Origin: an uncultured Desulfovibrio sp.
GTDB lineage: Bacteria; Desulfobacterota; Desulfovibrionia; Desulfovibrionales; Desulfovibrionaceae
Assembly (NCBI RefSeq): GCF_944324505.1
Contig: NZ_CALUWO010000005.1
Coordinates: 114,281-178,280 of the forward strand
Direction of reading: 5' to 3'
Length of the DNA: 64,000 nt
The position numbers were made by a program, and so were the translations under genes. Shown in pieces: positions 12,968-25,599 of this stretch (the first letter of the stretch is position 1; each line of letters opens with the position of its first letter). The notes below the pieces were generated by a model that did no database searches, had not been told where the DNA came from, and was given only the letters and a program-made list of their open reading frames with translations.

Positions 12968-14068
12968 TTACTGTCCGGGGGCCTCGTTCCCGGACGAAGC
13001 GGGCTGCTGCCGGGCCAGAAGGCGCAGATAGGTTCCGGTGGCATAGGTTCCGTCGCCCACCTTGCGGGCCTCCTGGGGGGTGATGCGCCCCAGCGCGGTA
13101 AAGAAGCGGGCCACACCGGCCTGCCACTGCTGCACCTGGCTGGGGCCGTGACTGTCGTCAAACAGGGCAAGCTGTTCCTGGAGGGTATAGACTGGATGGT
13201 TGCGCAGGTCCTGCAACGCCAGGGCAGCACTGTACTCCCGGTGGGAAAACTGCTGATAGAAGCGCTGGTACTGGGGCACGAGCTGTTCCGGCGGGGTGCT
13301 TCTGATGGCGGCAATGCCCCGCAGGTAAACCCCCAGAAAGCGCACCGTCACGTCGGGGTGGCGGGCAGCATAGCGGGTGTCGGCCACCATCACCACGGGA
13401 TTGCCGCGCCCGCACAGGCGCATGTCTGCGGCAAGAACGGCGCCTCTGTGCAGGGCATCAAACAGATAGGGCGCCCACAGGGCCACGCCGTCTCCTTCTC
13501 CCCGTTCAAAGGCCGCCAGGGCCTCTTTCTGCTCCATGTTCCTGATAATGATGTCACTGTCGCGCAGGCCCAGTATTTCCAGCCAGACATTGAGGGCATA
13601 GTGGGCGGAAGAGACGGTGGTGACCAGAAAGGTCTTGCCCCGCACCGTCTGGGGACTGCCGCAGACCTGGGGATACTGGCGGTTCCAGCCCCGTACCTGG
13701 GCCATGTCGCTGCCGGCCCGCAGCAGGACGCCATTGCTGCCTGACTCGTCGTTGCCCAGGGCAATGATGCTGCTGTTGTAGCGCAGATTGCCCAGCATGG
13801 CAGGCACGGCCCCCATGAGGGCAAAGTGCCAGCCGCGCGAGGCCAGGGCGGTGAGCATGTCCGCGCCGGAAGCAAAGCGCTTCATCTCCACGTTCAGGCC
13901 GGCTTCCTTGTCCCAGCCGTGTTCCTTGGCATACCACATGGGGAAGGTTTCATGATCGCCCAGCCAGGCGCTGACCACCGTGGTCAGTTCCCCGGCCATG
14001 GCCGCGCGGGGAAACAGGGTGGCAACAAGCAGGGCAGCCAGGAGAAGACGCGGAAGCATGTGCAGCAT
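12968..14068 (-). CDS. ABC-type periplasmic binding protein of the sulfonate/nitrate/taurine (NMT1/SsuA-like) class, without its transporter
   Basis: A 366-residue exported protein: signal peptide ending AAMAGE, then the type-2 binding-protein fold. Its pattern WYAKEHGWDKEAGLNVE...FASGADMLTAL resembles the SsuA/TauA/NMT1 group. Further motifs include GKTFLVTTVSSAHYAL in the second lobe. No permease or ATPase gene lies next to it. It is transcribed toward the YgjP-like gene and sits downstream of ald. Because tpa and ald are close, taurine or another sulfonate is an attractive ligand, but that is inference. GGAG precedes the ATG by about seven bases. Confidence 0.75.
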   Translation of the reverse strand: MLHMLPRLLLAALLVATLFPRAAMAGELTTVVSAWLGDHETFPMWYAKEHGWDKEAGLNVEMKRFASGADMLTALASRGWHFALMGAVPAMLGNLRYNSSIIALGNDESGSNGVLLRAGSDMAQVRGWNRQYPQVCGSPQTVRGKTFLVTTVSSAHYALNVWLEILGLRDSDIIIRNMEQKEALAAFERGEGDGVALWAPYLFDALHRGAVLAADMRLCGRGNPVVMVADTRYAARHPDVTVRFLGVYLRGIAAIRSTPPEQLVPQYQRFYQQFSHREYSAALALQDLRNHPVYTLQEQLALFDDSHGPSQVQQWQAGVARFFTALGRITPQEARKVGDGTYATGTYLRLLARQQPASSGNEAPGQ

Positions 14069-14326
14069 GGGGACACTCCGTGGACGTGGGCGTTACGCGA
14101 AGGGGAAACAGCGCAGCACAGCCGGAAGGCCGGCCGGAGGCGGCGGGGCCGCGTGTCTGCCAGGGAGAGATGTTGCTGAGCATAGCCTGTCCCACGGCGG
14201 GGCGCAAGGTAGTGCGGCGTGTGCGGCAGGCCTGCGGCAAGACCGGACATGCGGGCGCGGGCAGGACCGCTCCGGGATGGTGGCTACGGGGTAGCGGACC
14301 CGGGCAGAGGCTACAACCCGGCATGC

Positions 14327-14374
14327 ACTGGCAACGAAGCAGCACACGGACTGGCATGGACTGGAACGAACTGG
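14327..14374. repeat. Short repeats of ACTGG with a 10-base period
   Basis: ACTGG occurs at 14350, 14360 and 14370 in exact 10-base steps, and once more at 14327, in the gap between the binding-protein gene and ald. A related 10-base tandem repeat occurs at 20999-21028. Function unknown. Confidence 0.5.
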
Positions 14375-14544
14375 CTGGCCCGGATGGGGTAACCGGCGTC
14401 ATGCCGGGCCATTGTGGCAGCATGTCGGGGCTGGCCGGAGGCCCCTTCGGGAGGGAACGTCCGGCGGACGTGGCATGTGTCAGCGGGCCGGACGCCTTGT
14501 GTGGGAAGGGGCGTGTCGAAGCCCGCAGACGGCAGGCACAGCAT

Positions 14545-14576
14545 AAAAAAATCCCCCCGGCCGCGAAGCCGGGGGG
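14545..14576 (-). terminator. Intrinsic terminator of ald
   Basis: CCCCCCGGC (14553-14561) pairs with GCCGGGGGG (14568-14576). The A-run at 14545-14551 gives the U-tract of the minus-strand transcript. It is 28 bases after the ald stop. Confidence 0.88.
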
Positions 14577-14603
14577 AGAGGGATGGCAGGGCGGGTCAGC
14601 CCG

Positions 14604-15722
14604 TTACTTCAGCATTTCGGCGGCGGGAACGTATTCCAGACCGAAGGCATCGGCAACGCCCTTGAAGGTGCACTTGCCATAGACGGTGTTGAGACCGCGG
14701 GCAAGAGCGATGTTGTCGGCGCAGGCCTTCTTCCAGCCCTTGTCGGCCAGCTGCAGGGCATAGGGCAGGGTGGCGTTGGTCAGGGCGTAGGTGGAGGCGA
14801 TCGGCACGGCGCCGGGGATGTTGGCCACGGAGTAGTGGACAACGTCATGCTTCACGAAGGTCGGGTTTTCGTGCGTGGTCGGATGACCGGCGGTGGTTTC
14901 CACAGCGCCGCCCTGGTCAATGGCCACGTCCACCACGGCGGAGCCGGGGCGCATGGTTTTGATCATGTCTTCGGTCACCAGCTGCGGGCACTTGGCGCCG
15001 GGGATGAGCACGGAGCCGATGACGAGGTCGGCGTCCTTCACGGCGGCGGCAATGTTGTGGCTGTTGGAAGCCATGGTCTGCACGCGGGCGCCGAAGATGT
15101 CGTCGAGGTAGCGCAGGCGGTTCAGGTTGTTGTCAAGGATGGTCACTTCGGCGCCGATGCCGATGGCCATTTTGGCAGCGTTGGTGCCCACGATGCCGCC
15201 ACCCACGATGACGACCTTGCCGCGCTGCACGCCGGGCACGCCGCCCAGCAGCACGCCGCAGCCGCCGGCCTGCTTGGTGAGGATGTTGGCGCCCACCTGG
15301 ATGGACATGCGGCCGGCCACTTCGGACATGGGAGCCAGCAGGGGCAGGGTGCGGTCATCGGGCTGCACGGTTTCGTAGGCCAGGCCCACCACGCCAGCGT
15401 TGAGCAGGGCATCGGTCTGGGGCTTGTCGGCGGCCAGGTGCAGATAGGTGAAGAGCAGCAGGCCTTCGCGGAAGTATTTGTATTCGCTCTGCAGAGGTTC
15501 CTTCACCTTCATGATCATGTCGGCCTTGGCCCAGACATCGGCCACGGGCATCATGGTAGCGCCGGCAGCCTTGTAGTCGTCATCAGAAATGCGGCTGCCG
15601 AGACCGGCGCCGATTTCGATCATGACCTCGTGGCCATGGTCCTTCAGAGCTTTGACGCCAGCGGGGGTGATGCCTACACGATGTTCGTTGGCCTTGATTT
15701 CTTTGGTAACGCCGATAAGCAT
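14604..15722 (-). CDS. ald: Alanine dehydrogenase
   Basis: NAD-dependent enzyme that interconverts alanine and pyruvate plus ammonium. The 372-residue length and the sequence match the family. [20 protein letters not shown] opens the protein, MKVKEP follows in the substrate domain, and the NAD-binding motif [13 protein letters not shown] lies in the middle. ANIPGAVP and [12 protein letters not shown] come near the C-terminus. The start at 15722 has AGGAGG upstream. In Bilophila-type taurine metabolism Ald regenerates pyruvate for Tpa and yields NADH; tpa lies two genes upstream on the same strand. It has its own terminator and a 500-base upstream region, so it is probably transcribed separately. 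Confidence 0.94.
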
Positions 15723-16222
15723 TTGGATGCCTCCTGAAAAGGCTGCAGGTGAAGTTGGAAAGATTCGCACAAGACGAACAGTGCCTCGTACCATGAGAGG
15801 GAGGATATCCGAGGGGTCCGGCCTCTCACGCTCTGCGCGGGGTGCTGTGCCGTTGGTTTTTCTGTTGTGAAGAAAAGCTCTTTACGGGGAGCAGCACCAG
15901 GCTCAGCCTGTTTTCCCGGCTCACGAGGGCAACTTAGCGCGTTTTGTGGTCAAGAGCAAGGGGAAAGAGAAAAAAATGTCAAAAAACATATAATTCATTG
16001 ATATCATAGGAAAAAAATAGTTCTTTCCCACAAAATGTCCGTGGAACGCGCCGCCTGTACCGCCCTGTGCCGGACCCTGCGCAGAAGTTTCCGAAAAAAG
16101 GTAATAAATACTTATGGTTAAAAAATATTTTTTTATGGATTTTTGGCAATGTCCTGGGAACTTGTTCAGACAATCTCACAAAGATTGAGAAGATAAAAGG
16201 ATAAATTTCACAATTGACGGAA
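15723..16222. other. Long upstream region of ald, partly AT-rich
   Basis: Five hundred bases between the BMP-type gene and ald. The ald-proximal part contains TTGACA-like hexamers on the minus strand (15982-15977 and around 15955), without a strong -10. The segment 15965-16200 is much more AT-rich than the genome. An open frame at 15979-16179 on minus (66 codons) has no ribosome binding site or recognisable domain and is not called. The region probably holds the ald promoter and the 3' end of the upstream transcript. Confidence 0.45.
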
Positions 16223-17308
16223 TCAGCGGCAGTTGCAGAGCGTGCCCTGACGCAGGGAAGGCAGGCGTATGCTGCCCCTGCTCAGCTCCATGCGCAGTTC
16301 CTTGCAGCGCTGGAGCAGTCGGGGCGGCAGGGGCTTGCCCGCGGCGGCATAGCTGGCAAAGTTGGTGATGTCCACGCCGCCGTTTTCCAGCGTATAGGTA
16401 ATGATTTCCGCTCCCTGAAAGCGGTCGTCGGCATAGGCTGTGACCAGTTCCTCCACGGCACGGTCGGCCCGCTTGCGGATAGAGGTCAGCACGGTTCCGG
16501 GCATGAGGCTGTCCTGGTCGGCATCCATGCCGATGGCCAGGGCCTGCCGCTGCCGCAGCAGATCCAGTGTGCCCAGTCCGGCGCGTCCGGCGGACAGCAC
16601 CACAACGGCCGCCCCCTGATCCAGCATTTCCTGGACGGCTGCCCGGGCGGCAGCCGTATCGGTCCACGAGCCGATAACCCGGTGCAGAATGCGCATGTCA
16701 GGCGTCACCAGGCGTGCCCCTTCCAGAAAGCCGTTCAGCATGGTGCGCACGGCGCCGGTTTCATAGGCAGAAAGCCAGCCCAGTGCCCGGGGGCTGCTCC
16801 CGGACTGTGTGCCATCGGCTGTCAGCATGGCTGCCGCGGCTCCGGCCAGAAAGGCGGCCTGCTCGTCGGCAAAGGTGATGGACATGATATTGGCTGCCCG
16901 CACGCCGGTATCAATGCAGCCGAAGCGGGTCTGGCGGAAATTGGCCGCATTGTTGCGCAGTACTTCGTGAAGATTGTCGCAGGCCACGATAAGCAGACCG
17001 GAGCGGGCAGCTTCCTGTCGGAAGATGGCCTGCTGGTCGGCATGGGCCGGCGCCACCACCACGCGCACAGGCAGGCCGGTGCTGCGGGCGGCGCGTTGCA
17101 GGCCGCTTTTGAGCAGATCGTTCCAGCCCTGGTCCGGGCTATCGTCTTCCAGCAGCAGGGTCACGACGCCGGCGGGCGGTGTGGCCGCCGGGGCGGCACC
17201 GGCCGGGGACGGGGCCAGGGCGGCCAGCAGGAGCAGAAGAATCAGACAGCAGCGCAGAAGACCGGCCAGGGCCGGGCGCGGCGCATGGCATAACAGCAAG
17301 CAGGACAT
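16223..17308 (-). CDS. BMP-family (PnrA-like) periplasmic binding protein, orphan
   Basis: A 361-residue exported protein with a long signal region (LLLLLAALAPSPAGA). It then shows the BMP/PnrA pattern: SPDQGWNDLLKSGL, ITFADEQAAFLAGAAAA, GSWTDTAAARAAVQEML, AIGMDADQDSLMPGTVLTSIRKRADRAV. BMP proteins bind purine nucleosides or, in some cases, other small molecules for ABC uptake or sensing. No ABC permease is adjacent. It lies between tpa and ald on the same strand, with GGAGG before the ATG at 17308. The frame is open further upstream to 17410, without a ribosome site. Ligand unknown; the position beside the taurine genes is suggestive only. Confidence 0.8.
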   Translation of the reverse strand: MSCLLLCHAPRPALAGLLRCCLILLLLLAALAPSPAGAAPAATPPAGVVTLLLEDDSPDQGWNDLLKSGLQRAARSTGLPVRVVVAPAHADQQAIFRQEAARSGLLIVACDNLHEVLRNNAANFRQTRFGCIDTGVRAANIMSITFADEQAAFLAGAAAAMLTADGTQSGSSPRALGWLSAYETGAVRTMLNGFLEGARLVTPDMRILHRVIGSWTDTAAARAAVQEMLDQGAAVVVLSAGRAGLGTLDLLRQRQALAIGMDADQDSLMPGTVLTSIRKRADRAVEELVTAYADDRFQGAEIITYTLENGGVDITNFASYAAAGKPLPPRLLQRCKELRMELSRGSIRLPSLRQGTLCNCR

Positions 17309-17461
17309 GGCATCCTCCGCAAAAGGGGTTGGGGGCGGCCGGCAGTGCCGCCACGGGACAGACCCGCCCGGGCGGACGTATCGGCGGGACGGAGGGGAGT
17401 GTGCCCGCAAAACCCCGGCTTGACAAGATTGATGCCGCGGGCGGAAAAGGCAGGGAGCAAC

Positions 17462-17484
17462 AAAAAGGGGGGCCGAAGCCCCCC
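17462..17484 (-). terminator. Intrinsic terminator of tpa
   Basis: GGGGGGC (17467-17473), loop CGAA, GCCCCCC (17478-17484), with AAAAA on the left forming the U-tract of the minus-strand transcript. It lies 25 bases after the tpa stop and separates tpa from the BMP-type gene. Confidence 0.85.
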
Positions 17485-17509
17485 GTGGTTGCTGATGGAT
17501 GGAAGAGGA

Positions 17510-18880
17510 TTAGGCGCTGACCACAGCCAGAGCCTTGTCCAGCGCGGCCACAATGGCGTCGATGTCGTCCCTGGTGGAGATCAGGGCCGGGCTGAGGCAG
17601 AGGGTATTGTTGAATTCGCGGAAGCTGCGGGAGGTCTTGCCGATGATGACGCCCTGCTTGAAGCATTCGGCCACCACCTTGCCGGCCACGGCTTCGTCCA
17701 CGGGTTCCTTGGTGGCGCGGTCCTTCACCAGTTCCAGACCGGCGAAGAGACCCTTGCCGCGCACGTCGCCCACGATGGCGTACTTGCTCTTCAGGCCTTC
17801 CAGCCCTTCCATGAGGTGTTCGCCCTGCTTCACCACGTTGTCGAGCAGGTTTTCTTCCTCGATGATTTCCATGTTGGCCAGGGCCGCGGCCGGACCGGAG
17901 GTGCAGCCGCCGAAGGTGGAAATGTCGCGGAAGTAGGCGTCACGGTCGCTGGGATCGGCGATGAAGTCCTGGAAGACTTCTTCGGTGGTCACGGTGCAGC
18001 TGATGGGGGCATAGCCGGAGGCAACGCCCTTGGCCATGGTGACGATGTCGGGCTTCACGCCGAAGTGCTGGTAGCCGAACCACTTGCCGGTACGGCCAAG
18101 GCCGCAGACCACTTCGTCAATGATGAGCAGGATGCCGTACTTCTTGCAGATTTCCTGAATGGTTTCAAAGTAGCCGTCCGGGGGCACGATGACGCCGCCG
18201 CCGGCGGTAATGGGTTCAAGAATGACGCCGCCCACGGTATCGGGGTCTTCCTTCTGGATGACCTTTTCCATTTCCAGGGCGAACTTCTTGCCCAGATCGG
18301 TATTGTCGCTGTAGGGCGAGCGATAGGCGCAGCAGTCGGGGAAGGACACAAAGCCGGGCGTGAAGGGGCCGAACTGATTGCGGCGCTCAAACTGGCCGCA
18401 GGCGCTCAGCGTGGTGATGGTGGTGCCGTGGTAGTCACGCTCGCGGTACAGAATCTTGCTCTTTTTGCCGCCGTGCTTCAGGGCGGAGATCTGACGCACG
18501 ATCTTGAAGGCCTTTTCGTTGGCTTCGGAACCGGAGTTGGAGAGATACACTCGGCTCATGCCGGGCATCTTTTCGATGAGCTTCTTGGAGAACTGGATGG
18601 TCGGGATGTTGCCGTAGGCATTGGCAAAGTAGCAGAGCTTCTGCAGCTGATCCGCCACAGCCTTGACGATCTTTTCGCGGCCGTAGCCCACGTTGACCGT
18701 CCACACGCCGCCGGACACGGCATCAAGGTATTCCTTCCCGTACACGTCCGTGACGCGGTTGCCCTTGCCTTCGACGAAGATGACGGGATCGGAATTTTCG
18801 TACACCTTGTGCTGGGTCAGGTGGTGCCACACATACTTCTTGTCAGTGGAAATCAGATCGGCAGCATTGAAATCAGCCAT
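17510..18880 (-). CDS. tpa: Taurine:pyruvate aminotransferase (class III PLP enzyme)
   Basis: A 456-residue class III aminotransferase. The opening YVWHHLTQHKVYENSDP and the block DAVSGGVWTVNVGYGRE strongly resemble the Bilophila taurine:pyruvate aminotransferase as I recall it. RERDYHGTT, IDEVVCGLGRTG (D255 for the PLP nitrogen) and MAKGVASGY (K284, Schiff base) resemble it too. Tpa moves the amino group of taurine to pyruvate, giving sulfoacetaldehyde and alanine. Start at 18880 has GGAGG seven bases upstream; an in-frame ATG at 18898 is the alternative. A good promoter lies at 18990-19018. Ald nearby can recycle alanine. Other omega-amino donors remain possible, so substrate is inferred. 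Confidence 0.87.
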   Translation of the reverse strand: MADFNAADLISTDKKYVWHHLTQHKVYENSDPVIFVEGKGNRVTDVYGKEYLDAVSGGVWTVNVGYGREKIVKAVADQLQKLCYFANAYGNIPTIQFSKKLIEKMPGMSRVYLSNSGSEANEKAFKIVRQISALKHGGKKSKILYRERDYHGTTITTLSACGQFERRNQFGPFTPGFVSFPDCCAYRSPYSDNTDLGKKFALEMEKVIQKEDPDTVGGVILEPITAGGGVIVPPDGYFETIQEICKKYGILLIIDEVVCGLGRTGKWFGYQHFGVKPDIVTMAKGVASGYAPISCTVTTEEVFQDFIADPSDRDAYFRDISTFGGCTSGPAAALANMEIIEEENLLDNVVKQGEHLMEGLEGLKSKYAIVGDVRGKGLFAGLELVKDRATKEPVDEAVAGKVVAECFKQGVIIGKTSRSFREFNNTLCLSPALISTRDDIDAIVAALDKALAVVSA

Positions 18881-18989
18881 GGTAGCCTCCAATGTCATTA
18901 TAAAATGGTCCTGGGCCAATCCCATAATGAAAACGTGCACCAGCGTCCGTGCGACTCCGCCGAAACCGTTCACGCCTTCGCTACGAGCA

Positions 18990-19018
18990 CTGATATGAGT
19001 TTTGGGATGCCTTGTCAA
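18990..19018 (-). promoter_or_regulatory. Sigma-70-type promoter of tpa
   Basis: Minus-strand TTGACA (19018-19013) and TATCAG (18995-18990) with a 17-base spacer. The predicted leader is about 105 bases. An AT-rich block lies just upstream at 19020-19070. Confidence 0.6.
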
Positions 19019-19163
19019 CCAGATTGGATTTTTTTCTTAATTTATTGATTTAATTGGTAAAAAAATGAGCATTTCGGCCATTTTCGCCGCATGTTTTCCA
19101 GCGGCTGCGATGCTTCTGCCGGCCTGCATTGATAAGAGGCCCCCGGAAGCCGGAAGGGAAAAA

Positions 19164-19178
19164 TGCCTGAATCAGGCA
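19164..19178. repeat. Inverted repeat TGCCTGA-A-TCAGGCA upstream of hydG
   Basis: A perfect 7-base dyad around one base, flanked by A-runs on both sides, in the 477-base divergent gap between tpa (minus) and hydG (plus). It looks like a binding site for a dimeric regulator. No regulator gene is adjacent and the owner is unknown. The rest of this gap shows only the tpa promoter and AT-rich DNA. Confidence 0.4.
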
Positions 19179-19357
19179 AAAAAAGCGGCATACTGTGAAA
19201 AAAAGCGCTAGCTTTGTACGGACAAGGCTGCTATATTTCCCCCTGTTACGGATGCAGCGCCCGCAGCGGACGCGCCGGGTGCGGTGCGTCGTTCCGCGCT
19301 GTGCTTTCTGTCTACCATCCGGCAGGTGCATGCCTGCCGCGTTTCGAGGTCGCAACC

Positions 19358-20755
19358 ATGTCACAGTTCACTCCTCCCGCGTGGCTGGATATCCGCGCCA
19401 TTGAGGAGGCCCTCGCCTGCGCCGTGGCGCCTGATGCCGCCCGCCTGCGGGCCATTCTTGACAAGTCCCTGGCCATGCAGTCCCTGAGTCTGGCCGAGAT
19501 TGCCACGCTCATGCGCGTTACGGATCCCGATGCCCTCAGCATGCTCATGCAGGCGGCCGATGCCGTGAAGCAGCGCGTCTACGGGGACCGCATCGTGCTT
19601 TCCGCGCCCCTGCATCTCACCAATCACTGCGGCAGCGAATGTGTCTACTGTGCCAACCGGCGGGGCAATACCATGGTGCAGCGCTGCTACATGACCTCCG
19701 TGGACATCCGCGATGCGGCGCGCAAGCTCGTCCGGCAGGGGCACAAGCGCGTCTTTCTGGTGACAGGGCAGCTGCCCAATGCCGATATCGAATATCTGGC
19801 CGAGGCCATCAGCATCCTGTATACGGTATATGATGAGTCGGACGGCGAGATCCGCCGGGTCAACGTCAATGTGGGGCCGCTCTCTGCCGCGGACTATGCC
19901 GAGCTGCGTGCCGTGGATGTGGGGTCCGTGCTGCTCTATCAGGATACCTACCATCCGGAGCAGTATGCCGCCATGCACCGTTCCGGCCCCAAGGCCGATT
20001 ACAACCGGCGCATCAACGGGCCGGATGTGGCCCTGTCCGCCGGCATGGGGGATGTGGGGCTGGGCCTGCTGCTGGGGCTGGCGCCCTGGCAGTTTGACGT
20101 GCTGGCCCTGTCACTGCATGCGGCCCACCTGGTGCGCGTCTACGGCACGGGCGGGCATACGGTGAGCATGCACCGCCTGCGTCCCGCCCCCGGCGGTCTG
20201 GAACAGGCCCCCTTCCCGGTGAGTGACCAGGACTTTCTGCGCTGCGTGGCCATTACCCGGCTGGCCATTCCCTATACGGGCATCATTCTCAGCACGCGCG
20301 AGCCGTCCGGCCTGTGGCGTGACGGGTGCAGCGTGGGCTGTTCGCAGCTGCTGACGGGCAGTGTGGCCAATCCCTACGCGGACTGGAGTCCCCTGCCCGG
20401 CCCGGGTGGGGTGCCTTTCCCCATCGGGGAGAACTGCCACGTGGATGACGTGGTCAGCTTTCTGCTGGAAGAGGCCAGGCATTTGCCGTCGTTCTGCACG
20501 GCCTGTCCGCGCCTGGGGCGCAGCGGGGTGGAGTTCCTTTCCATGGTGCGCGAAAGCGGCATGAAGGGGCAGTGCGGTCCCAATTCCATGGCGTCCTTCT
20601 TGGAATTTCTGCTCAACTATGCCACGCCGGTCACGCGCCGGCTGGGTGAGGCCCTCATTGCCGAAAAGCTGGCCGCCATGCCCGAGCCGGACAAGGGCGC
20701 TGCCGAGCGCCTGTTGCAGAAGGTGCGGGCCGGCCGGGTGGACGAGTTCATCTAG
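19358..20755 (+). CDS. hydG: [FeFe]-hydrogenase maturase HydG
   Basis: HydG is a radical-SAM tyrosine lyase that makes CO and cyanide ligands for the H-cluster. The 465-residue protein has the CX3CX2C SAM cluster (C91, C95, C98) and the diagnostic C-terminal CX2CX22C (C380, C383, C406), which separates HydG from its relative ThiH. The start at 19358 (MSQFTPPAWL) has GAGG upstream; the open frame further upstream lacks one. HydE, HydF and hydrogenase genes are not in the window. It follows the divergent tpa and precedes the unknown 1013-residue gene by 394 bases. Confidence 0.93.
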   Translation: MSQFTPPAWLDIRAIEEALACAVAPDAARLRAILDKSLAMQSLSLAEIATLMRVTDPDALSMLMQAADAVKQRVYGDRIVLSAPLHLTNHCGSECVYCANRRGNTMVQRCYMTSVDIRDAARKLVRQGHKRVFLVTGQLPNADIEYLAEAISILYTVYDESDGEIRRVNVNVGPLSAADYAELRAVDVGSVLLYQDTYHPEQYAAMHRSGPKADYNRRINGPDVALSAGMGDVGLGLLLGLAPWQFDVLALSLHAAHLVRVYGTGGHTVSMHRLRPAPGGLEQAPFPVSDQDFLRCVAITRLAIPYTGIILSTREPSGLWRDGCSVGCSQLLTGSVANPYADWSPLPGPGGVPFPIGENCHVDDVVSFLLEEARHLPSFCTACPRLGRSGVEFLSMVRESGMKGQCGPNSMASFLEFLLNYATPVTRRLGEALIAEKLAAMPEPDKGAAERLLQKVRAGRVDEFI

Positions 20756-20998
20756 GGGCGGCTGGCTGCCGTTTCGGGCCGCAGACACATGACAGACGGC
20801 GCAGGAGGACCTGTGTCCGGGCGCATGATCCCGGCGGCCGGCTGCCGGGGAAATGCCGCGGCCTGCCCGGCCATGCTGTAACCTTCCCATGCCCGCATGC
20901 GGGAAAGGGGGGAGTCTCTGCCAGCGCGGGCGGGGACCCCTGCCCCCGGAAGTGCCTCGCCCTGTGGTCAGATCGCCTGCCGGCACACGCGGGCCGGG

Positions 20999-21028
20999 CC
21001 TGGACTGACCTGGACTGGCCTGGACTGG
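20999..21028. repeat. Three tandem copies of a 10-base unit CCTGGACTGR
   Basis: CCTGGACTGA at 20999, then CCTGGACTGG at 21009 and 21019, in the 394-base gap after hydG. It shares the ACTGG core and the 10-base period with the repeats near 14350. The rest of the gap is GC-rich; I see no gene in it. Confidence 0.6.
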
Positions 21029-21149
21029 ACAAGGTGCGCCGGGTCTGCGAGAGTACAGCTTCCGGTGATCGGAATTTTCAGAAACGAACAGGGGGTCGCC
21101 TGCGGGCGGCCCCTTGCTGTTCGGTAACGACGGTGCGCGGAGGAAGAGC

Positions 21150-24100
21150 ATGAAGGGCAGAAGGCACATGAGCCTGTATTTTGACCAGCAGGACAGGGAG
21201 ATTCTCAGCCTGGTAAACAGGATTCTCGATGCGCCCAGTGCGGCCTTTGTGGAAGGTCTCATCGAGCCGGAGCTGCACCCGCACGGCATTCAGGAAATGG
21301 TCACCTCGCAGGCTTCGCGCATGGCGGCGGCCACGGTGAACCTGCTGCGCAATCTGGAAGGGGGCGGATCCAGTGCCCGCGGACGCCTGTGCGCCCTGCA
21401 GACGTTGTTTGACGAGGTCATGGCCAGCGCCCATTCCTGGCTGCGGCGCAATACGGCCCGCGTGCTGTTGCAGATCATGAAGGAAATGGTGCGCGCCCAC
21501 GGCGACACACAGGAACAGCTGCGCCTGGCCCGGGCCTTCCGGCAGACGGCGCTGGGCAGGCCGCGTGTGGTGCGTCGCATGCTGGCGCTGTATCATCTGG
21601 CCGAAATGCCGGAGGACTGGAACCAGGTTGCCTTTGACAATCATGTGTATGATGTGAACACCAAGGGGCGCAAGACTCCCACGCATCTCATCATGGATGC
21701 CTGGATCAAGGGCATGGGCTGTCTCACGGTCCTGTATGACAACTGCATTGAAATGGAGGCCGCCGGAGAGCTGCTGGAGGCGGCGGCCATCACCGGCATG
21801 AAGGTGCGCGTGGGCATTGAATACCGGGTACCCTTTTACGGCCGCTATGTGAGCCTGCTCTGGGTGCCGCGGGGCTTCAGTTCCAGCCGTGACTTCATGG
21901 CCTTCATGGACAGTCCGGCCATGCAGGCCATGCAGCAGCGCGGCCGCGGCGTGCTGCACTGGCTGCGCGAGCATGCCATGCAGGTGCTTGAATGCTGGAA
22001 TGACCGGCAGCGTCCTGAGCTGGAAGCCCGCTGGAAGGTCAGCATTCCGCCTGCCAGCGTGGAGGACTTCCTGGATTTTCTGGGCCGGCACCACTCCTTC
22101 ATGCTGCGCCTGGCCGAATATCTGCATCAGCTGGTGCTGCCTGCCCTGCGGCAACGGGCGCAGCAGCTGGCGCCGCTGGCGGCAGGGGGCGATGCTGCGG
22201 CCCGGGCCGAAATCGACGAGCTGGAGCATCTGACATCGGATGTTATTCTGCACAGCTGGCTGTCGGTGGACAAATTTCCCGAGCTGCCCGACGTGCAGGT
22301 GCCCTCCCTGGAGGAAAGTGTTCCCGAACTGCGCCGCATCTCCATGGGCGAACTGGTGCGCCAGCTGCGCGCGCTGACGCCGGGCTATCGTCTGACGCTC
22401 TGCACCGACGGCCTGGATGCTGCCGATGTCATCGAACTGATCTGGGATTGCCAGGGAGGCATCACCCATCTTGAACTGTTCAACACCAAGAGCTGGATGG
22501 CCGGGGAGCTGACGCACATCCGCGAAATCAGCGAATTGCAGCAGATTCTCAATCACGGTATGGGGCCGCACATGAAGCAGATGGTGCGGCAGATCATCCG
22601 GCGCCTGGAGGCAGAGCACAACGAGGAGCGGCTGCCCAAGTTTCAGGAGATCCTGCGCGACATCCCCCAGCTCTGGGAAACCTACCGGCACACGCCCCTC
22701 AAGACCCGCCTGGGCAGCAATGCCGCCACGCGCCTGCGCACCTTCGGCATGGGGCTGGCCATTCGGGAGACGCTGCCCCGGCGTGGTGTGGCGGCCCTGA
22801 GCGGCAAGAATGCCTCCACACCGCCCATTCCCATCTATTCTCCGGTGGAGGAGCACTTTTCCTATACCGAGCCGGAGCATCCCACGCCCTGCCAGCAGGC
22901 TTTGTCCCGGCTGCGCTTTCTGCCGGGGGGCAACCACCTGGGCATGGAGCGGCACCGCTGTTGGGTTGCCGCCAGCGAAGGCTGCCGCTACGCCCCTGAC
23001 GGCAATATCCTTGCCCTGGGCGGTCACAGCATTCCGGCGCCCAATGCGCTGCTGCCGCCTGCGGAAACGCACCACCCCAGGCCGGGCCTGGGGCAGCTCA
23101 ACAGCGCGGTATGTGATACGCTCAAGGTGCTGGCGGGCTTTTTTCCGGCCTTTTTCACCTTTTTGTATACGCAGGAATGGTGGGTGCTGGCCTGGTTCGG
23201 GGCATTTATCTGGTTCGGTATCACCGGCGTGCGCAATGTGCTGCAAATGGTCATGGCCGCACAGGGCTTTACGCGGGGGTCTCTTACACACTGGAAGGAG
23301 CATGTCAGCGTTACACGGCTCTGTGATTCGCTTATGTTCACCGGTATATCCGTTCTTTTGCTTGAGGGTATCCTGCGCGTACTTATCCTGCAAGACATCT
23401 TCGGTATAACAATTGCCGACAGTCCCATTATTGTTTTTTCCGTTCTCAACATTATCAACGGCTTCTATATATTTTCGCACAACGTCTTTCGTGGCTTTCC
23501 GCGTACAGCATCAATAGGAAATCTGTTTCGCAGTATTCTGGCCATTCCCGTTTCTTCGCTGGGCAATACCTGCCTATTCTATCTGCTGCTCTTTTGCGGC
23601 ATTGCCGATCCGCTTGTGTATCTGACCCCCAGTGCGGCCATCGTTTCCAAGCTGGCGTCGGATGCGGTGGCGGCACTCATCGAAGGTTTTGCCGACAGCC
23701 AGGCTAACCTGCGCATGCGTCGGCGGGACTACTGGCAGAAGCTGCGGCGGGTTTTTGACTGTGCCACCCGACTGGAGCTGCTCTTTCCGCGGGAAGACGC
23801 GCTCAACAAGCTGGCCCGTCCCGGGGGGCTGGGTGGTCGGGGCGGACCGGAGGCGGCCCGCCTGGAACGGGCGCTGATCATCAGCGCACTGGACCTCCAG
23901 TACTTCTGGTTTTACCAGCCGCGTGCCCAGGAAGCCTTCCGACAGGTGCTGCGAAGCATGTCTCCGGCGGATTTGAGGGTGTTCTTTCGTTCCCAATTGG
24001 TCCTTTTGCGGGAAAAAGAGATCAGTCAGCTCATGGTAAATGGCCTTCTTGGGCATAACTTTTCGAAACCGTTGGTCTTTTTTCTTAATAACAATGGCAG

Positions 24101-24191
24101 CTACTTGAGGGCCATGACCCGTCTGTGCCGCATTGCCGAGGGAAGGAGCGCACATGCCGCTGCCGAAGGCAGAACGGGGCAGACTGCATGA
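21150..24191 (+). CDS. Large protein of unknown function: degenerate PHP-like segment plus C-terminal multi-helix membrane domain
   Basis: I do not recognise this 1013-residue protein as a named family. GGAGGA precedes the ATG at 21150. Residues 162-230 read like a PHP phosphoesterase fold (NHVYDVNTKGRKTPTHLIMDAWIKGM, then AGELLEAAAITGMKVRVGIEY). The metal-binding histidines expected in DxHxH are mostly replaced, so it may be catalytically dead. A second soluble part (about 400-520) has LTLCTDGLDAADVIELIWDC and HMKQMVRQIIRR. Residues about 655-825 contain roughly five membrane helices, followed by a cytosolic tail of about 190 residues. The membrane-coding DNA at 23280-23600 is poorer in GC than the rest. 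Stands alone between hydG and the alcohol dehydrogenase. Confidence 0.8.
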   Translation: MKGRRHMSLYFDQQDREILSLVNRILDAPSAAFVEGLIEPELHPHGIQEMVTSQASRMAAATVNLLRNLEGGGSSARGRLCALQTLFDEVMASAHSWLRRNTARVLLQIMKEMVRAHGDTQEQLRLARAFRQTALGRPRVVRRMLALYHLAEMPEDWNQVAFDNHVYDVNTKGRKTPTHLIMDAWIKGMGCLTVLYDNCIEMEAAGELLEAAAITGMKVRVGIEYRVPFYGRYVSLLWVPRGFSSSRDFMAFMDSPAMQAMQQRGRGVLHWLREHAMQVLECWNDRQRPELEARWKVSIPPASVEDFLDFLGRHHSFMLRLAEYLHQLVLPALRQRAQQLAPLAAGGDAAARAEIDELEHLTSDVILHSWLSVDKFPELPDVQVPSLEESVPELRRISMGELVRQLRALTPGYRLTLCTDGLDAADVIELIWDCQGGITHLELFNTKSWMAGELTHIREISELQQILNHGMGPHMKQMVRQIIRRLEAEHNEERLPKFQEILRDIPQLWETYRHTPLKTRLGSNAATRLRTFGMGLAIRETLPRRGVAALSGKNASTPPIPIYSPVEEHFSYTEPEHPTPCQQALSRLRFLPGGNHLGMERHRCWVAASEGCRYAPDGNILALGGHSIPAPNALLPPAETHHPRPGLGQLNSAVCDTLKVLAGFFPAFFTFLYTQEWWVLAWFGAFIWFGITGVRNVLQMVMAAQGFTRGSLTHWKEHVSVTRLCDSLMFTGISVLLLEGILRVLILQDIFGITIADSPIIVFSVLNIINGFYIFSHNVFRGFPRTASIGNLFRSILAIPVSSLGNTCLFYLLLFCGIADPLVYLTPSAAIVSKLASDAVAALIEGFADSQANLRMRRRDYWQKLRRVFDCATRLELLFPREDALNKLARPGGLGGRGGPEAARLERALIISALDLQYFWFYQPRAQEAFRQVLRSMSPADLRVFFRSQLVLLREKEISQLMVNGLLGHNFSKPLVFFLNNNGSYLRAMTRLCRIAEGRSAHAAAEGRTGQTA

Positions 24192-24396
24192 AAGCCCTGA
24201 TACAGGCCTGTTTTCCGTATTGTCGTCTGTATGAGCGTTTTTTAACTGTTCACTCAAACAGTCTTGTGATTTTTTTATATTATGCAAAAAATTGGAAAAA
24301 AAACTTGTCATATTATGAGGCCTAACGTAACGTAGTGACGTACCAAACAATAAACACACCGTATGAGCAACTGCGGTAGAAAAAAAGGAGTCGGTT
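24192..24396 (+). promoter_or_regulatory. AT-rich upstream region of the iron alcohol dehydrogenase
   Basis: Two hundred bases with long T and A tracts (24240-24320), then three copies of ACGTA at 24325, 24330 and 24338, then GGAG before the ATG at 24397. Several TATTAT/TATATT-like hexamers exist but I cannot choose a single promoter. The AT content and spacing fit a strongly expressed, regulated gene. Confidence 0.45.
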
Positions 24397-25599
24397 ATGA
24401 GCACGGATATGAAGAGCATGCACATGGGTCAGATCACCTCATTCTTCATCCCCAACGTAACGCTGGTGGGTGAAAACTGCTGCACCGAAATCCCCAAGCG
24501 CCTCAAGAATATCGGCGGCAAGCGTCCGCTCATCGTGACCGACAAGGGCATTGTCAACTGCGGCATCCTGAAACACATCACGGACATTCTGGACAAGGCC
24601 CGTATGAAGTACGTCGTGTATGACGGTACGGTGCCCAATCCCACGGACGCCAATGTGGCGGAAGCCACGGCGCTGTACAAGGAAAACAAGTGCGACAGCC
24701 TCATTACCCTGGGTGGCGGCAGCTCGCATGACTGCGGCAAGGGCGTGGGCTTTGTGGTCAGCAACGGCGGCACCATCCACGACTACGAAGGCGTGGACAA
24801 GTCCTCCAAGCCCTTCCCGCCCTATGTGGCTGTGAACACCACGGCCGGTACGGCCTCGGAAATGACCCGTTTCTGCATCATCACCGACCTGTCCCGCAGG
24901 GTGAAGATGGCCATTGTGGACTGGCGCTGCACCCCCAGCGTGGCCATTGACGACCCGGTGCTCATGATGAACATGCCGTCTTCCCTCACGGCGGCCACCG
25001 GCATGGATGCCCTGACCCACGCCATCGAAGCCTATGTGTCCACCGCTGCCACGCCCATGACCGACGCCTGCGCTGAAAAGGCCATGGAATACATCAACCG
25101 TTACCTGCGCCGTTCCGTGGCCTGTGGCGCCAAGGACAAGGAAGCCCGCGAAGGCATGTGCTATGCCCAGTATCTCGCCGGTATGGCCTTCAACAATGCC
25201 AGCCTCGGCCATGTGCATGCCATGGCGCATCAGCTGGGCGGTTTCTATGACCTGCCGCACGGCGAATGCAATGCCATTCTGCTGCCCCATGTGTGCAATT
25301 ACAACCTGATTGCTGCCCGCCGCCGCTTCGGCCGTATTGCCAAGCTCCTGGGCGAACGCGTGGACAACCTGAGCGCCCATGAAGCCTCGGAACGCGCCAT
25401 CGTCGCCATCAACATCCTGTCCAAGGATGTGAGCATCCCCACCGGCCTTGTTGCCCTGGGCAAGAAGTACGGCAAGGAAGTGCGTGAAGAAGACATTCCC
25501 ACCATGACGGCCAACGCCCAGAAGGACGCCTGCGGTCTGACCAACCCCCGCATCATGACGGATGCCGCTGTGGCCGCCATTTACAAGGCTGCCATGTAG
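24397..25599 (+). CDS. Iron-containing alcohol dehydrogenase (ethanol or sulfoacetaldehyde type)
   Basis: A 400-residue group III dehydrogenase. The nucleotide motif GGGSSHD lies at 107-113. Metal ligands D204, H208, H274 and H288 occur in GMDALTHAIEAY and HVHAMAHQLGGFYDLPHG. Members interconvert aldehydes and alcohols with NAD(H). In Desulfovibrio a close type is a major ethanol dehydrogenase. In Bilophila a member (SarD) reduces sulfoacetaldehyde to isethionate after Tpa. The gene is 5.5 kb from tpa and not in its transcript, so both roles remain open. GGAG lies six bases before the ATG, and a strong bidirectional terminator follows. Single-gene unit. Confidence 0.9.
   Translation: MSTDMKSMHMGQITSFFIPNVTLVGENCCTEIPKRLKNIGGKRPLIVTDKGIVNCGILKHITDILDKARMKYVVYDGTVPNPTDANVAEATALYKENKCDSLITLGGGSSHDCGKGVGFVVSNGGTIHDYEGVDKSSKPFPPYVAVNTTAGTASEMTRFCIITDLSRRVKMAIVDWRCTPSVAIDDPVLMMNMPSSLTAATGMDALTHAIEAYVSTAATPMTDACAEKAMEYINRYLRRSVACGAKDKEAREGMCYAQYLAGMAFNNASLGHVHAMAHQLGGFYDLPHGECNAILLPHVCNYNLIAARRRFGRIAKLLGERVDNLSAHEASERAIVAINILSKDVSIPTGLVALGKKYGKEVREEDIPTMTANAQKDACGLTNPRIMTDAAVAAIYKAAM

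Follow-up and report, generated by a model that had tools for sequence, protein, structure and literature searches.

What becomes of the sulfoacetaldehyde that an uncultured Desulfovibrio sp. is predicted to form from taurine? The question is raised by a stretch of 64,000 nucleotides (contig NZ_CALUWO010000005.1, positions 114,281 to 178,280; in the following, the window), which encodes a predicted taurine-pyruvate aminotransferase (Tpa), an alanine dehydrogenase (Ald) and, 5.5 kb from tpa, an iron alcohol dehydrogenase (Fe-ADH). The original prediction for this DNA was a possible taurine-to-isethionate module as in Bilophila, with the Fe-ADH as candidate for the role of SarD. From comparisons of sequences, gene neighbourhoods and trees we conclude, with a probability of about 85%, that tpa and ald serve the Tpa-Ald-Xsc route, with sulfoacetaldehyde acetyltransferase (Xsc) encoded on another contig, and not isethionate formation. 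The three genes lie where they had been placed:

17510-18880, minus strand: tpa, predicted taurine-pyruvate aminotransferase of class III, 456 amino acids, ATG start behind a GGAGG site

14604-15722 (open frame to 15794), minus strand: ald, alanine dehydrogenase by TIGR00518, 372 amino acids, predicted to regenerate pyruvate

24397-25599, plus strand: iron alcohol dehydrogenase, by SarD score and tree not SarD, hence left outside the taurine route

The gene for Xsc was found at G000:C2:254600-256303 (G000 is the genome containing the window; its 15 contigs amount to 2,213,039 bases, and its completeness is rated 100%); its product scores 773.3 bits with TIGR03457 (cut-off 676.4 bits), the next Xsc homologue in this genome 352 bits. 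Among the named loci, of which 11 out of 80 were mapped, four have the gene order ald-tpa-sarD (L119, L122, L123 and L124), and their Tpa shares 72-76% identity with that of the window; for a fifth, with the order sarD-tpa-ald, the identity is 65%. Ald, scoring 542.3 bits with TIGR00518 (cut-off 391.85 bits), is by this model a true alanine dehydrogenase. In the predicted route Tpa would transaminate taurine to sulfoacetaldehyde, Ald would recycle the alanine to pyruvate, and Xsc would split sulfoacetaldehyde to sulfite and acetyl phosphate, of which the former would be reduced by DsrAB and the latter used by AckA.

The route itself is already known. For Taurinivorans muris, the sections of PMC10507020 on taurine report transcriptomics and proteomics that strongly suggest taurine breakdown via Tpa-Ald-Xsc, and they name Desulfovibrio-affiliated metagenome-assembled genomes from the mouse with tpa-xsc; the corresponding section of PMC9016944 describes the three-step pathway (pathway 2) in human-gut Desulfovibrio spp. 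Compared with the Tpa-Ald-Xsc-Dsr system of T. muris LT0009, as presented in those sections, our genome has the same Tpa, Ald and Xsc homologues and neither SarD nor IslAB, whereas its xsc is followed by phnX and the taurine cluster of T. muris encodes tripartite ATP-independent periplasmic (TRAP) transporters. With the Desulfovibrio genomes it shares the genome-predicted pathway and the taxonomic group; phnX is not mentioned in the sections of the two papers that deal with them. The window thus adds one more case to this pathway: the observation made in the original prediction was correct, the branch chosen for it wrong.

The Bilophila route (Tpa-Ald-SarD-IslAB), as outlined in the relevant parts of PMC6386719 and PMC8667426, shares the Tpa and Ald steps with our genome, in which SarD and IslA were not found; Bilophila is reported there to lack Xsc. 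Of the proposed module the deaminating half, Tpa and Ald, stands by orthology and gene neighbourhoods, and the isethionate half had to be rejected on the missing lyase and on the SarD score and tree of the dehydrogenase. A search of the genome for the lyase with PF02901, the family of glycyl-radical enzymes like pyruvate formate-lyase, which includes lyases such as IslA, gave zero matches, so that neither an enzyme of this kind nor, accordingly, IslA was found. Among the 61 genomes of our relatives sample (own included), 35 have a PF02901 match. The Fe-ADH, which the original prediction had considered as a possible SarD, reaches 244.8 of the 700 bits required of SarD, and this is already the best SarD score of the genome (about 245 bits). 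In a tree of 38 rows, with long branches on some other rows, it groups with starred support among the Fe-ADHs of its genus, across starred branches from the SarD group. It is 88% identical to an Fe-ADH of G006, a genome without a close Tpa, and the proteins of solved structure closest to it in sequence are methanol, 1,3-propanediol and alcohol dehydrogenases. Of the three findings that the original prediction had named as speaking against itself, two are thus observed, the absence of IslA and the grouping of the dehydrogenase.

How Tpa is paired was followed through the 37 genomes of the relatives sample that belong to the genus (own included). A close Tpa is encoded in 17 of them (own included), nine of which have Xsc over the cut-off and three more (G004, G009 and G026) an Xsc piece under it (in G009 and G026 on the same contig as tpa, at its end). 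SarD over the cut-off was found in two of the 17 (G015 and G029), adjoining tpa in both. G001 and G027 have SarD-like genes under the cut-off (535 and 585 bits); in G002, G007 and G026 an Xsc, whole or as a piece, is accompanied by a SarD-like gene that also falls short of the cut-off (480-517 bits); and G003 has Tpa with neither Xsc nor SarD. In G017, G018 and G020 xsc lies within 2.3 kb of tpa. On a Tpa tree of 32 rows (21 with xsc in the genome or locus, six with sarD next door, five uncounted) the partner must have changed at least twice; L123 was left out of this tree and of the Fe-ADH tree, its length and layout being those of L109. On the survey and the tree together, Tpa is seen to combine with either branch, Xsc or SarD. 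Farther away, tpa (71% identity), ald and xsc stand by best hit on one locus of a Marinobacterium (L125), and tpa (71%) and xsc, also by best hit, in Pseudomonas segetis (L132).

The ald-like gene beside the relatives' tpa is not ald throughout: in G002 it gets a higher score for the alpha subunit of a transhydrogenase, and this alpha subunit is also the best hit in G004, G007, G020, G024, G028, G032 and L120. In L107 (10018-14718; family scan), as in L105, L106, L110, L112 and L100, a PntAA-like gene by best hit takes the place of ald, followed by PntAB and PntB where the contig continues; L111 and L120 are cut by the contig end.

The remaining features on the minus strand of the window, with the two binding proteins on either side of ald as originally placed, complete the gene group at 12968-18880:

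16223-17308, minus strand: BMP/PnrA-type binding protein (PF02608), 361 amino acids, between tpa and ald

12968-14068, minus strand: NMT1/SsuA-like binding protein (SBP), homologous to the SBP of an ATP-binding cassette (ABC) transporter near the relatives' tpa

17484-17467, minus strand: terminator-like hairpin 26 bases behind tpa, by consensus scan only

14577-14552, minus strand: terminator-like hairpin 27 bases behind ald, by consensus scan only

Homologues of the BMP-type protein (53-55% identity) occur also near tpa in G002, G024 and G028. The SBP stays below every curated NCBIfam cut-off that it matched (SsuA_fam, 69 of 163.5 bits); what ties it to the taurine genes is that the tpa-ald-xsc-phnX clusters of four genomes of another genus, g51 (G098, G126, G170 and G193), carry a homologous SBP, 43-44% identical to it.

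Several observations weigh against assigning tpa and ald to an Xsc route for taurine. The model that Tpa just exceeds, PRK07678 (489.3 of 488 bits), is a general aminotransferase model and not one for Tpa, and the direct comparisons of Tpa were with predicted Tpa proteins. The genes tpa, ald and xsc are scattered in our genome, and those of the window probably do not form one transcript: because terminator-like hairpins stand behind both tpa and ald, and ald is set apart from the BMP-type gene on one side and the SBP gene on the other by some 500 bases each, tpa and ald are probably separate transcription units (the whole stretch has 13 terminator-like sites, versus 5.7 +/- 2.3 in shuffles). 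Uptake of taurine also lacks an obvious carrier among the genes searched. Between 7000 and 33000 of the window nothing homologous to the ABC permease and ATPase genes of the relatives, or to dctP of the TRAP type, was hit, and a close homologue of the permease was not found in the genome, where the search matched two stretches (71 and 51 bits, 33-34% identity) of a single gene. Finally, G005, G016 and G022, all of the genus, have Xsc over the cut-off and no Tpa, so that Xsc alone need not mean taurine.

The partially matched permease gene is part of a different NMT1-type ABC system on contig C4 (L307:2-3381), in which binding protein, permease and ATPase are followed by a gene that by sequence impression resembles an acyl-CoA dehydratase activator. 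A sigma-54 promoter at tpa was considered and dropped (22 matches in the window versus 53 expected, zero in front of tpa). Divergent from tpa, on the plus strand, lies a gene for a HydG-like radical SAM protein (19358-20755; 319.1 bits, cut-off 312.15). An open frame of 1025 residues (21114-24191), also on the plus strand, has no significant Pfam or NCBIfam match; G024 and G028 have a conserved counterpart (59-60%), likewise with hydG on one side and the Fe-ADH gene on the other.

Could the Bilophila-type route still operate, with the Fe-ADH acting as SarD and isethionate being split by a glycyl-radical lyase that the assembly missed? Tpa and Ald are present, and a homologous Fe-ADH is encoded near tpa also in G002, G024 and G028; but a genome rated complete that has no PF02901 match and does have an Xsc over the cut-off, together with the low SarD score of the Fe-ADH and its place among the Fe-ADHs of the genus, one of them, at 88% identity, from G006 with no close Tpa, makes this extremely improbable. 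In other bacteria taurine is known to serve as a nitrogen source only. If this were so here, Tpa and Ald would free ammonia and isethionate or another C2 sulfonate would be exported, with which the distance of tpa and ald from xsc in our genome would agree; since Xsc is present and in relatives linked to tpa, we regard it as very unlikely.

The aminotransferase might instead act mainly on another omega-amine, such as beta-alanine or 2-aminoethylphosphonate, and Xsc be fed from, for example, sulfolactate. The three genomes with Xsc and no Tpa would fit, as would the lack of linkage between xsc and tpa in our genome, yet tpa lies near xsc in G017, G018, G020 and the four g51 genomes, and the ald-tpa-sarD clusters carry the same Tpa, which leaves this explanation with a small chance. 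The Tpa-Ald-Xsc route for taurine remains the reading that we prefer.

What is new is the gene next to xsc. In our genome xsc is directly followed by phnX, predicted to encode phosphonoacetaldehyde hydrolase (TIGR01422, 323.6 bits, cut-off 220); the unit lies at G000:C2:253527-256303 (L099:7486-10448), with modABC-like genes upstream. The relatives sample and a second sample of 199 genomes overlapping it contain 13 and 31 genomes with Xsc over the cut-off, six of them shared, hence 38 in all. One Xsc copy per genome was mapped; two genes over the cut-off occur in G089 (C6), G250 (C1), G092 (C10, C27) and G165 (C14, C84). Directly behind xsc and on the same strand, phnX was found in 13 of the 38, our own and 12 others, which belong to three genera (seven to ours, own included, five to g51 and one to g45). 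In G060 and G111 phnX lies about 6.5 kb from xsc on the same strand, and in the remaining 23 none was seen in the stretch examined, which for most covers about 1.5 kb on each side of xsc (in G018 the contig stops at xsc). In the four g51 genomes named above, xsc-phnX-gntR is divergent from tpa, ald and the genes for ABC ATPase, SBP and permeases. Both xsc and phnX are present in 11 of the 199 genomes, versus 3.9 expected (Fisher p 2e-4; this test and that on PhnW below ignore relatedness among the genomes). Outside the family, in a phylum sample of 395 genomes (E <= 1e-30), none of nine phnX loci in eight genomes has xsc within 1.5 kb.

The PhnX of our genome aligns over 256 residues with a phosphonoacetaldehyde hydrolase of solved structure, 2iof. 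Of the catalytic residues, Asp, Cys, Met, Lys and His are all retained, among them Asp12, Lys53, Cys22 and His56 in the usual numbering. (At the position of the K of 2iof, the structure chain 2ioh has an R.) The nine catalytic or binding positions examined are of the phosphonatase type in all xsc-linked rows, and the 12 xsc-adjacent copies that were run all exceed the TIGR01422 cut-off, the 13th (G007) being matched by BLAST only.

On a PhnX tree of 31 rows the 13 xsc-adjacent copies and 13 classical, pbfA-adjacent copies are separated with a single change, a number as low as in none of 500 shuffles, and by a weak branch (support 60/66). The 13 xsc-adjacent rows alone are rejected as one clade (p 1.9e-6), because L206 and L212 lie among them, two loci of our genus in which phnX-gntR stands at a contig end, so that a neighbouring xsc would be out of view. 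With these two added, xsc-linked PhnX forms one side of that branch; with L118 and L260, in which xsc lies at a distance of about 6.5 kb, added as well, it is no clade in the best tree, nor is it rejected as one (p 0.124). At a support of 60/66, a single origin of xsc-linked PhnX is not established. An acidic residue immediately precedes the catalytic lysine in 13 of 13 xsc-adjacent rows, in both contig-end rows and in both 6.5-kb rows (L201, L206, L207, L209, L210, L212-L217, L220, L269-L271, L118 and L260), and a non-acidic one in L208 and in 12 of the 13 classical rows, the exception being L211. In the phylum sample one of ten readable loci has the acid (L293), with no xsc within 1.5 kb. 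Since the acid largely tracks the linkage to xsc, xsc-linked PhnX may have shifted in substrate.

Where would the phosphonoacetaldehyde come from? According to the parts of PMC10590968 on 2-aminoethylphosphonate, PhnX is normally partnered by PhnW, and the phnX clusters known without phnW contain flavin adenine dinucleotide (FAD)-dependent oxidases. With the PhnWX pathway outlined there our genome shares the catalytic set of PhnX, whereas it has no PhnW over the cut-off (360.8 bits) and its phnX stands behind xsc. PhnW over the cut-off was found in all five genomes with classical clusters that were examined (G092, G111, G147, G159 and G216; about nine further genomes with classical phnX are outside this count), each with pbfA beside phnW, and in none of the 12 for which no phnX other than an xsc-linked one is known (G000, G002, G005, G007, G024, G028, G032, G098, G126, G170, G193 and G201; the first look for extra phnX copies covered all of these except G005, G007 and G032), a difference of 5/5 versus 0/12 (Fisher p 2e-4). 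G092 has one classical and one xsc-linked copy; neither G017 nor G020 has a PhnW over the cut-off. The best PhnW score in our genome, 167.2 bits, belongs to a protein that scores higher as a BhcA-type aminotransferase, also under the cut-off (252 of 650 bits). Because the four class-III aminotransferases found in the genome are Tpa, BioA, ArgD and HemL, Tpa may be the plainest source of phosphonoacetaldehyde: it may also transaminate 2-aminoethylphosphonate, on weaker grounds than taurine, with PhnX cleaving the product.

We tentatively propose, as a possibility, that one Tpa would serve both taurine and 2-aminoethylphosphonate and that the xsc-phnX unit would cleave C-S and C-P bonds, releasing sulfite, to be respired, and phosphate, to support growth; this would be the first joint catabolic module for organosulfonates and organophosphonates. 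Against Tpa feeding PhnX stands G005 (rated 98% complete), which has xsc-phnX and no close Tpa. The same genome would agree with xsc-linked PhnX being a neofunctionalised hydrolase of the haloacid dehalogenase (HAD) type and not a phosphonatase, acting for instance on the product or a by-product of Xsc, and so would the acid before the catalytic lysine. That the nine positions are nevertheless phosphonatase-like and that 12 of the 13 xsc-adjacent copies exceed the TIGR01422 cut-off makes this explanation, which concerns the phosphonate part only, a doubtful one, though one to be taken seriously.

The adjacency of xsc and phnX is the new element. The main text on T. muris contains no word starting with 'phosphon' (PMC10507020). 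Phosphonatase, taurine, 2-aminoethylphosphonate and gene cluster occur together in PMC10590968 and PMC5082522, and the one paper that names both aldehydes is a genome description with the genes in separate sections. Our literature search, with most subscription journals outside its scope, yielded no paper joining phosphonoacetaldehyde hydrolase with sulfoacetaldehyde acetyltransferase, none with phnX, xsc and taurine, and none with Xsc, phosphonate and Desulfovibrio.

One source of the hydrogen sulfide formed in the guts of animals is taurine respiration, whose two known routes are unlike in their cofactors and in their sensitivity to oxygen, as stated in the pertinent sections of PMC10507020 and PMC6386719. 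Since closely related Tpa proteins occur with Xsc in some genomes of one genus and with SarD in others, a route annotated from Tpa alone can be the wrong one. The part most worth testing is the xsc-phnX unit: if the proposal holds, sulfidogenic bacteria would have one pathway for both the sulfur and the phosphorus analogue of an amine, and a source of phosphonate would be linked to the production of sulfide.

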